A program made the translations under genes and the position numbers. The notes under the pieces are model-generated. The model had not been told where the DNA came from, ran no database searches, and saw only the letters and a list, made by a program, of their open reading frames with translations. Below, in pieces: positions 39,043-54,808 of a stretch of 64,000 nucleotides of DNA. The DNA comes from Gemmatimonadaceae bacterium. GTDB lineage: Bacteria; Gemmatimonadota; Gemmatimonadetes; Gemmatimonadales; Gemmatimonadaceae. Within the stretch, counting starts at the first letter, position 1. Each line of letters opens with the position of its first letter. The DNA is taken from positions 62,001 to 126,000 of the forward strand of contig JADZAN010000033.1 of the NCBI GenBank assembly GCA_020852815.1. The letters are read 5' to 3'.

Positions 39043-39999
39043 ATGCACTGGTTCACCCGCCTCCTCCTCGCCGGCGTCATTGGTGTGATCGCCGCCCCGA
39101 AAGCGCCGGCGCAGGTTCGCCAACCCGGCACCACCTGGAGCGACGAACAGCTCCGCAAAGCTGTGGCGCCCGTGCGCGCCGGCCGCCGCCTAACGCCGAA
39201 GACGTGGCCAAACGGCGCGCGCGTCGCCGTCAGCATCACCTTCGACGACGACAACGAGTCGTATCTCCTCGCCTCCGGCGACACCTCGCCCACGACCCTC
39301 TCCGCCGGCGACTTCGGCGCGCAGTCTGGGCTCCCGCGCATCCTGCGACTCCTGGACAAGTACCAGATCCCTTCGACCTTCTTCATCCCCGCGGTGAGCG
39401 CCATGCTCCACCCGGAGATGATCCCGGCAATCATGAGATCGGGGCGACACGAGATTGGCGTTCACGGGTGGATCCACGAGTATCCGCCAGCGTTAGGCAG
39501 CGCCGAGGAGGAGGAGCGCCTTCTCAACAAGGCCATCGACTACCTCACCGCGCAAACCGGGAAGCGCCCCGTGGGCTATCGCGCCCCGGCCTGGGCCTTC
39601 TCTCCCCACACGCTCTCGCTGGTGCGCAAGGCGGGCTTCCTCTACGAAAGCTCGCTGCAGGCGATGGATGAACCGTATGAAGTGGTCGCCGACGGCCAAC
39701 CCACGGGGCTCGTCGAACTCGGCATCGACTGGACGCTCACCGAGACCCCCTACCTCGGCGCCCGCGGCACCATGCCCGATCCGGAGCAGGTCTTCAAGCT
39801 CTTCCGCAAGGAGTTCGACGGAGCATACGCCGAGCGGACGATGTTCGTGCTGACGTTGCACCCGCACGTGACCGGCCATCGCGCGCCGATGCAGGAGCTG
39901 GAGAAGCTGATCGCCTACATCAAGGCGAAGCCTGGCGTCTGGTTCGCGACGACTGAGGAGATCGCGCGCTATGTGAAGGCGCAGGCGGGGATGCCCTAG
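39043..39999 (+). CDS. Secreted polysaccharide deacetylase (NodB-type)
   Basis: A 318-residue exported carbohydrate esterase 4 protein that would remove N-acetyl groups from peptidoglycan or chitin-like polymers, or act on small amides as PuuE-like members do. The ATG at 39043 is followed by a signal peptide (LLLAGVIGVIAAPKAPAQ); the open frame upstream overlaps the PLD gene and is not coding. Seen: the metal/catalytic FDDD at 67-70, the histidine motif GVHGWIHEYP, and GYRAPAWAFS. The ending LTLHPHVTGHRAPMQELE resembles the PuuE/allantoinase-like subgroup. Its stop overlaps a decayed Uma2 start on the other strand. Confidence 0.9.
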   Translation: MHWFTRLLLAGVIGVIAAPKAPAQVRQPGTTWSDEQLRKAVAPVRAGRRLTPKTWPNGARVAVSITFDDDNESYLLASGDTSPTTLSAGDFGAQSGLPRILRLLDKYQIPSTFFIPAVSAMLHPEMIPAIMRSGRHEIGVHGWIHEYPPALGSAEEEERLLNKAIDYLTAQTGKRPVGYRAPAWAFSPHTLSLVRKAGFLYESSLQAMDEPYEVVADGQPTGLVELGIDWTLTETPYLGARGTMPDPEQVFKLFRKEFDGAYAERTMFVLTLHPHVTGHRAPMQELEKLIAYIKAKPGVWFATTEEIARYVKAQAGMP

Positions 40000-40037
40000 T
40001 CGATCATTTCGGGCAGTAGCGGTACACGCGCAGGCAC
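39996..40037 (-). pseudogene. Thirteen-codon remnant of an Uma2-family gene
   Basis: A GTG start lies exactly six bases after the -10 element of the third leaderless promoter copy, in the same position as the starts of the two intact Uma2 genes. It reads VPARVPLLPEMID then stops. The beginning resembles the intact starts MPAPLFLPTDP and MPAPSPILPD. The rest of the gene is missing and the sequence merges into the 3' end of the deacetylase gene. Interpretation as a deletion remnant is inference from position and short similarity. Confidence 0.55.
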
Positions 40038-40080
40038 GGCCATAGCGTACGCTCGGCGCAGTTAGGGAGGCAAGGGGACA
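40038..40080 (-). promoter_or_regulatory. Orphan copy of the Uma2-type leaderless promoter
   Basis: On the minus strand: -35 TTGCCT (40068-40073), the 18-base spacer CCCTAACTGCGCCGAGCG, and -10 TACGCT (40044-40049). The spacer is identical to those at 53.97 and 54.69 kb. It now drives only a 13-codon remnant. The flanking CATGTCCCC upstream of -35 is also shared. Confidence 0.7.
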
Positions 40081-53356: not shown

Positions 53357-53953
53357 TCAGTTCGCCGCCGTCTCCTCCCCGTGCACCCGCCGGAAATAGG
53401 CGACGAGGTCGATCACCAGCGGCTCCTCGTCAGGCATCGGCGACCAGGCCAGCGACTCCGCGAGGACGTCCGGTATCTCCGTCCCCGGGCACCAGCGCTC
53501 GATCACGCGATGCTCGGTGTCGACGATCCAGTACTCCTCGACCCCTTCGCGCTGATACAGGCGCCGCTTCACGTGCCGGTCGGCGCGCAGAGACGTTGGG
53601 GAGAGCACCTCGACGGCGAGCACGAGGCGCCGAACATCGCTGAACTCCCGCGGAGGCGCACCATCCGCTCGACGCGGCGTGACGAACACGTCGGGCTCCA
53701 CCACCGTCGTGCGGGAGAAAGGCACCTCCGCGGGTGCGATCATGCAGTGCAGCGCGTGTCGATGCGCATACTCGCGGAGCAACACGTACAATTCTCCCAC
53801 CGCGCCCTGGTGCCGCCACGACGGTGCCGGTGTCACCAGCAGCTCTCCGTCGACGACTTCGTAGCGGTTCCCGTCGTCGGGAAGCGCGTGCAGCTGCTCC
53901 GCCGTCCAGTCGCGGCGACTGCGATCGGGGAGAATCGGTGAGGGCGCGGGCAT
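53357..53953 (-). CDS. Uma2-family protein (PD-(D/E)XK fold), copy 1
   Basis: A 198-residue member of the Uma2 (DUF820) family, a putative restriction-endonuclease-like fold widespread in large free-living genomes. The catalytic core is seen: VEPDVFVTP (Asp), LVLAVEVLSPTS (Glu), the following VKRRLYQREGVEEYWIVD with its conserved Lys and Tyr. It starts MPAPSPILPDRSRRDW, like copy 2. A strong promoter ends six bases before the ATG and no ribosome-binding site is possible, so the mRNA is probably leaderless. Its nuclease target is unknown. Confidence 0.88.
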   Translation of the reverse strand: MPAPSPILPDRSRRDWTAEQLHALPDDGNRYEVVDGELLVTPAPSWRHQGAVGELYVLLREYAHRHALHCMIAPAEVPFSRTTVVEPDVFVTPRRADGAPPREFSDVRRLVLAVEVLSPTSLRADRHVKRRLYQREGVEEYWIVDTEHRVIERWCPGTEIPDVLAESLAWSPMPDEEPLVIDLVAYFRRVHGEETAAN

Positions 53954-53959
53954 CCCTAT

Positions 53960-53989
53960 AGCTTACGCTCGGCGCAGTTAGGGTGACAA
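53960..53989 (-). promoter_or_regulatory. Leaderless promoter of Uma2 copy 1
   Basis: On the minus strand TTGTCA (53984-53989), spacer CCCTAACTGCGCCGAGCG (18 bases) and TAAGCT (53960-53965), then exactly six bases to the ATG. The geometry places the transcription start at or beside the start codon. The spacer is identical in all three copies in the window. Confidence 0.8.
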
Positions 53990-54079
53990 GGGGCCATGCC
54001 CCATCATGCACGCGATCGCCGGCGCAGACGTTACCGATATCGCGCGCTCGGTGACGCAATCGTGCGCCATCGAGGTGAG

Positions 54080-54673
54080 TCAACCTTTCGCGAGCTCCTC
54101 GCCGTGGACGCGCCGGAAGTAGGAGGGAAGGTCGATCACGAGTGGATCTGCGCTACCGCGAGGCGCCCACGACAGCGTGTCGACGACGACCTCGGGCTCC
54201 TCGTCGTCAGGACGCCAACGCTCCACGAGTCGCGCCTCTGGTTCGACGATCCAGTACTCCGCGACCCGTTCGGATTGGTAGAGCCGGCGCTTGACGTACC
54301 GATCGACGCGCACACTCGAGGGCGACAAGACCTCCACGACGAGTACGAGCCGGCCCACGTCCTCGAACCGCTGCGCCAGCTTCCCGTGCAGTAGCGGCAG
54401 CACGAACAGGTCGGGTTCGACGACGCGGCGTGGCGAGAAGGTCACATCCGCGGGCGCGATCACACACTCGCTGTCGTGTTGCGCCGCATACGGCTTCAAC
54501 AGTACGCCCAGTTCCAAGGCGGCACGTTGGTGCATCAACGCGGGCGCCGGCGTCACCAGCAGCTCTCCGTCGATGACTTCGTAGCGCTTCCCGTCGGCGG
54601 GAAGCGCATTGCGCTCCTCCACCGTCCAGTCGTGGCGGGAAGGGTCCGTAGGTAGGAACAGGGGCGCGGGCAT
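54080..54673 (-). CDS. Uma2-family protein (PD-(D/E)XK fold), copy 2
   Basis: A 197-residue paralogue of the adjacent copy. The ATG at 54673 is chosen over the in-frame ATG at 54679. It lies six bases from the -10 element, exactly as in copy 1, and makes the two N-termini align (MPAPLFLPTDPSRHDW). Core motifs: VEPDLFVLP, LVLVVEVLSPSS, VKRRLYQSERVAEYWIVE. Here the usual Gly before the EYWIV block is replaced by an RVA sequence. The two copies are similar throughout but clearly diverged, so the duplication is not recent, unlike the near-identical promoters. Confidence 0.88.
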   Translation of the reverse strand: MPAPLFLPTDPSRHDWTVEERNALPADGKRYEVIDGELLVTPAPALMHQRAALELGVLLKPYAAQHDSECVIAPADVTFSPRRVVEPDLFVLPLLHGKLAQRFEDVGRLVLVVEVLSPSSVRVDRYVKRRLYQSERVAEYWIVEPEARLVERWRPDDEEPEVVVDTLSWAPRGSADPLVIDLPSYFRRVHGEELAKG

Positions 54674-54679
54674 GCCCAT

Positions 54680-54709
54680 AGCTTACGCTCGGCGCAGTTA
54701 GGGGTGCAA
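54680..54709 (-). promoter_or_regulatory. Leaderless promoter of Uma2 copy 2
   Basis: TTGCAC (54704-54709), the same 18-base spacer, and TAAGCT (54680-54685) on the minus strand, six bases before the preferred ATG. Sequence upstream of -35 (CATGTCCCC and a CGGTAACG block further out) is also shared with copy 1. Confidence 0.8.
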
Positions 54710-54808
54710 GGGGACATGACCGAAACAGGCAAGCCCGCTCGCGTGCGGCGTTACCGTATTCGCGCGCATGGTGCCATTCGGTTGCGCCTCCTGCCCTCAC
54801 TCCCGCCC

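Follow-up and report, generated by a model that had tools for sequence, protein, structure and literature searches.

A conserved promoter-like block fused to the start codons of Uma2 genes in Gemmatimonadales

Leaderless genes with a TANNNT hexamer about 12 bp before the start codon are established (Zheng et al., 2011, PMC3160421; for Deinococcus-Thermus, PMC12340547); a limited literature search returned no paper on leaderless genes in Gemmatimonas. Uma2 (COG4636) proteins are putative PD-(D/E)XK nucleases (Feder and Bujnicki, 2005, PMC551604; Makarova et al., 2009, PMC2701414). The passages of the 2005 paper that deal with the family propose selfish elements, name no association from which their control could be understood and find in the gene neighbourhood no hint to the regulation of their activity (PMC551604), and the corresponding passages of the 2009 paper suggest that they may be solo toxins within cassettes of paralogues (PMC2701414). 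A third kind of system, in the passages cited here, is the autoregulated toxin-antitoxin promoter, for example that of MazE6, which acts on an 18-bp operator (PMC9477884), or that of AbiEi (PMC7319586).

The window, which is the whole stretch of 64,000 nucleotides analysed here (C33:62001-126000, from a 5.38 Mb assembly), contains two Uma2 genes in tandem on the minus strand, with ATGs at 53953 and 54673. They score 95.0 and 89.9 bits against the curated PF05685 cut-off of 27 bits, are annotated by family as putative nucleases, and encode proteins with 59% identity. Their neighbours are another Uma2 gene, a gene for a YdjM-type membrane protein and, on the opposite strand, one with a Fic domain; an adjoining antitoxin gene, as in type II toxin-antitoxin systems, is not present. 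The features are the following.

53357..53953, minus strand: Uma2 copy 1, 198 aa, PF05685 (Pfam E 4.9e-27)
53954..53959, minus strand: copy 1 discriminator, ATAGGG (predicted transcription start 53953)
53960..53965, minus strand: copy 1 -10 element, TAAGCT (A-11 97% and T-7 99% in relatives)
53966..53983, minus strand: copy 1 spacer, 18 bases, CCCTAACTGCGCCGAGCG (CCGAG at 53968-53972)
53984..53989, minus strand: copy 1 -35 element, TTGTCA (TTG exactly at -36 in 75/82 related Uma2 matches)
54029..54035, minus strand: possible copy 1 upstream box, GGTAACG at -82 (weak evidence; words of relatives peak near -85)
54080..54673, minus strand: Uma2 copy 2, 197 aa, PF05685, starting at the second ATG (Pfam E 1.7e-25)
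54674..54679, minus strand: copy 2 discriminator, ATGGGC, containing the upstream in-frame ATG (predicted transcription start 54673)
54680..54685, minus strand: copy 2 -10 element, TAAGCT (sequence and alignment of relatives)
54686..54703, minus strand: copy 2 spacer, 18 bases, same as copy 1 (CCGAG at 54688-54692)
54704..54709, minus strand: copy 2 -35 element, TTGCAC (sequence and TTG of relatives at -36)
54749..54755, minus strand: possible copy 2 upstream box, GGTAACG at -82 (weak evidence; words of relatives peak near -85)
39996..40073, minus strand: third, orphan promoter block (core 40044-40065, one mismatch) leading into a Uma2-like stub of 15 codons closed by TAG

Copy 1 reads TTGTCA-CCCTAACTGCGCCGAGCG-TAAGCT-ATAGGG-ATG and copy 2 TTGCAC-CCCTAACTGCGCCGAGCG-TAAGCT-ATGGGC-ATG. 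The first-pass annotation had described an identical 18-base spacer and a TAAGCT six bases before the ATG in both copies, which is correct, TAAGCT and six further bases standing directly 5' of each ATG; of the -35 element that it had assigned to both, TTG is common and the rest of the hexamer differs. A GGAGG-like Shine-Dalgarno site 5-9 nt before the ATG is found in neither copy. The 22-mer CTAACTGCGCCGAGCGTAAGCT occurs in the assembly in two exact copies and one with one mismatch, and these are its only matches at up to 3 mismatches; its reversed control had 0 matches in the genome, and 100 shuffles of the window gave 0 matches to the core. Copy 2 has two in-frame ATGs, at 54679 and 54673. 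The move of its start to the latter is favoured by the predicted transcription start and by the alignment of 73 relatives, although the upstream ATG is also conserved in relatives.

Some other readings of the block were rejected. RNA folding over it was no better than that of shuffles (z 0.42 and 1.10), which speaks against a structured 5' leader. An integron attC or other recombination site, suggested by CTAAC/GTTAGG words, is disfavoured by the single register of the block on the ATG. A scan with the sigma-70 consensus, which is that of E. coli, gave no match here, as expected because the promoter is GC-rich.

Throughout the order, TTGC...(G)CCGAG...NANNNT-ATGGGC-ATG precedes Uma2 genes in constant register with the start codon, the best relatives listed having 40-63% protein identity; relatives of copy 1 are present in 80/99 related genomes. 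In a position-weight scan in which each sequence was left out in turn and the ATG was not used, the best match in 76 of 82 cases lay directly on an ATG in frame (a few genes being seen twice, in two loci), and TTG stood naturally at exactly -36 in 75 of the 82. The 73 unique promoters with TTG at -36 align gap-free on the ATG; since they were chosen for TTG and ATG, these columns appear invariant by construction. They have TG at -43/-42, C-33 (88%), CCGAG (62/73), A-11 (97%), T-7 (99%), a discriminator with ATGG at -6..-3 (A-6 93%, T-5 and G-4 97%) and a pyrimidine at -1 (96%). Upstream of about -48 there is little conservation except for weak boxes near -85 and -105; words of the GATGACG/GGTRAC type peak near -85. 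The exact 18-base spacer is a special feature of this genus only, the order-wide parts being TTGC, CCGAG, NANNNT and ATGG[GC]Y. The suggestion that a regulator reads the spacer is nevertheless plausible, since CCGAG is conserved within it.

The register of CCGAG is not constant (-24, -22, -19, -17 and others). It follows the Uma2 protein tree with 23 changes versus 48.4 after shuffling, a clustering that is inflated by near copies. In a further clade of Uma2 genes of the order the CCGAG block is mostly absent and the promoters are different, and Uma2 genes in other orders of the class (L259-L288) have a different conserved start block, CGGAG[GC]TATGATGTGTCCACCATG. The type of promoter therefore goes with the gene lineage. 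Some genes with the other-order start block CGGAGGTATGATGTGTCCACCATG have TTGAC-N6-TTGAC upstream, the two words being 11 bp apart. Two other Uma2 genes of the genome (L013, L015) show a second CGCCGAGCGTTAGGCTCC word, roughly 50-60 nt 5' of the promoter that abuts the start, which is perhaps a relic of the standard block.

The block is specific for Uma2. When 200 genomes of the phylum were scanned with the strict core pattern TTGC-N21-A-N3-TATGG-N-Y-ATG, it was present in 60/115 genomes of the order versus 3/85 other genomes of the phylum (totals tallied by hand from the table), and the control pattern had 2 matches in all; 20 listed genomes of the same family that lack Uma2 had 0 matches. 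Sixty-nine of the 72 matches checked lie directly before a same-strand Uma2 gene, 68 of them in frame from that ATG. The remaining three comprise one that leads into a 22-residue stub and two that precede unrelated genes and have a spacer without CCGAG. The expectation that the cassette sits at Uma2 starts has thus been borne out by the genome search, and a random repeat is rejected on these counts. One exact match in an Oscillospiraceae MAG is followed by no Uma2-like start and is taken as chance.

TAAGCT at -12..-7 in both copies has the TANNNT form of the -10 element of leaderless genes. It should be noted that this form is not peculiar to Uma2. In a genome background of 1.17 Mb with 840 genes, predicted by a simple gene caller of our own rather than taken from annotation, TANNNT peaks before candidate ATGs at -12 (15 cases) and -13 (11 cases) versus a background of 3.25, which indicates that leaderless starts are a real minority class in this genome; a Shine-Dalgarno peak is also seen. 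The 15 starts with the hexamer at -12 read TAnnTT, have TTG at -36 in 0, ATGG in 0 and CCGAG/CTCGG in 2 cases. The Uma2 promoters are therefore a distinct set. The leaderless mRNA proposed in the first-pass annotation is well predicted by A-11, T-7, the exact 6-nt spacing, the pyrimidine at -1 and A at +1, and stands as a prediction. A separate observation concerns GCCTAACG, which looks like a genome-wide signal word: in the roughly 1.96 Mb covered (window, L022-L078 and L109-L148) it occurs 732 times on both strands, or once per 2.7 kb, versus 78-84 times in the same 1.96 Mb for the words GCCTATCG and GCCAAACG of the same composition.

We consider it rather probable that the block is a Uma2-specific core promoter with a leaderless start, the spacer and discriminator of which are held by selection, probably via a trans-acting factor. 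Each Uma2 gene of the order would be its own transcription unit, with a small sigma-70-like promoter core (TTGC, about 18 bases, NANNNT) fused to the start codon and inherited together with the gene. Because of this fusion RNA polymerase would start at the A of the ATG and generate a leaderless mRNA. CCGAG, the ATGG[GC]Y discriminator and, to a lesser degree, the box near -82 are conserved even though protein identity has fallen to about 45-60%, and would be kept by selection, most likely because a trans-acting factor dedicated to Uma2 binds over the promoter and keeps the predicted nuclease at a low level. The sequences themselves establish conservation, register and specificity, and from them we infer the start at the ATG, a factor on the spacer, and repression. 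Since the block occurs almost exclusively at Uma2 genes, it is simpler to suppose a factor linked to Uma2 than a host regulator of general scope, which is an argument rather than a test. The candidate is Uma2 itself or a dedicated protein, autoregulation being one option; an untidy point is that the variable register of CCGAG counts against a simple operator. Going further, one may imagine that Uma2 genes are selfish units travelling as gene plus start-abutting promoter, and that the Uma2 protein recognizes the CCGAG/ATGGGCATG block, each copy repressing itself and its relatives and thus limiting a nuclease that has no antitoxin. We offer this only tentatively and think it rather unlikely.

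That the block is instead a translation signal we regard as unlikely. The true start would then be the ATG at -6, which is in frame and conserved, with GAG/GAGG some 8 nt further upstream serving as a weak Shine-Dalgarno site, and the mRNA would have a normal leader. Indeed, this ATG and GAG word could form a weak ribosome-binding arrangement, some members read CCGAGGAGG-N7-ATG, and the Uma2 module of other orders, GGAGG-TATGAT-GTG, has a good Shine-Dalgarno spacing. However, most members have CCGAGCG or similar rather than GGAGG, at -6 copy 1 reads ATA and two further Uma2 genes from the same assembly read CGGCAC and CTACGC, and TTG at exactly -36, A-11 and T-7 are left unexplained. No better are the prospects of a specialized sigma factor that would read the whole block without a separate regulator and have the Uma2 genes as its regulon. 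The constraint from -43 to -1 does exceed that of a usual sigma-70 promoter, and the leaderless TAnnTT promoters elsewhere in the genome look different from the block, but A-11, T-7 and TTG resemble the housekeeping pattern, it would be unusual for a sigma factor to serve a single sporadic gene family across many genera, and the register of CCGAG varies.

The Uma2-specific promoter held by selection agrees with the comparison of the two window copies. Positions -30..-7 (spacer plus hexamer) are identical at 24/24, versus 33/66 (50%) at fourfold-degenerate sites and 46% in the flank -120..-49. The promoters are therefore more conserved than silent sites and, as noted earlier, than the proteins. 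Selection or gene conversion had been offered as causes. Selection is favoured over conversion alone, since species and genera with strongly diverged proteins still share the block; for example, 22/24 block positions are identical in a same-genus species with 40-42% identity at fourfold sites, which conversion within one genome cannot explain. That the identity in the window reflects only recent duplication or conversion, with an unconstrained spacer, is very improbable: the genes are in tandem, and other genomes hold tandem Uma2 copies with identical 39-mers, but the window pair has diverged at fourfold sites and flanks (46-50%), the block is common to other species and genera, as the cross-genus alignment already showed, and conversion would in each lineage have to be confined to some 24-26 bases, which is unlikely. 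On this reading the window copies would be an old tandem duplication in which the block was retained under constraint; the multiple near-identical tandem copies in some genomes suggest that local homogenization or recent duplication also occurs. In a same-genus genome (G002, L018) the block recurs, together with a shortened Uma2 gene, downstream of a YdjM-type-like gene which, by eye, resembles the gene preceding copy 2; this matching place makes it probable that the site goes back to the ancestor of the genus.

Uma2 has been called selfish-like since 2005, without a known partner, target or control. A conserved putative switch of ~45 bases fused to the gene starts is a first handle on the control of these scattered genes. 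Being order-wide and almost only at Uma2, it can serve as a specific DNA bait for finding controllers or binding partners, and it is a reliable means of setting Uma2 start codons.

In the limited set of literature searched no description of this block was found, and an order-wide, family-specific, start-abutting promoter for a putative selfish nuclease family appears to be undescribed, although leaderless genes themselves are known. The window genes are members of COG4636 and, like those in the passages cited above (PMC551604; PMC2701414), the family here is sporadic and multicopy, with tandem pairs and no fixed neighbour genes reported; those passages, unlike the present analysis, give no Uma2 promoter or cis-element. 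As in the MazE6 and AbiEi systems, at least as far as the cited passages describe them, a potentially harmful gene has a promoter that could be covered by a bound protein, but no antitoxin gene lies beside the window Uma2 genes and the Uma2 block is known as sequence. As in known TANNNT leaderless genes, the -10 hexamer ends 6 nt before the ATG, and the same peak is found genome-wide here. In contrast to the general -10 signal (PMC3160421; PMC12340547), however, Uma2 genes add across the order a fixed TTGC, the spacer word CCGAG and the ATGG discriminator.
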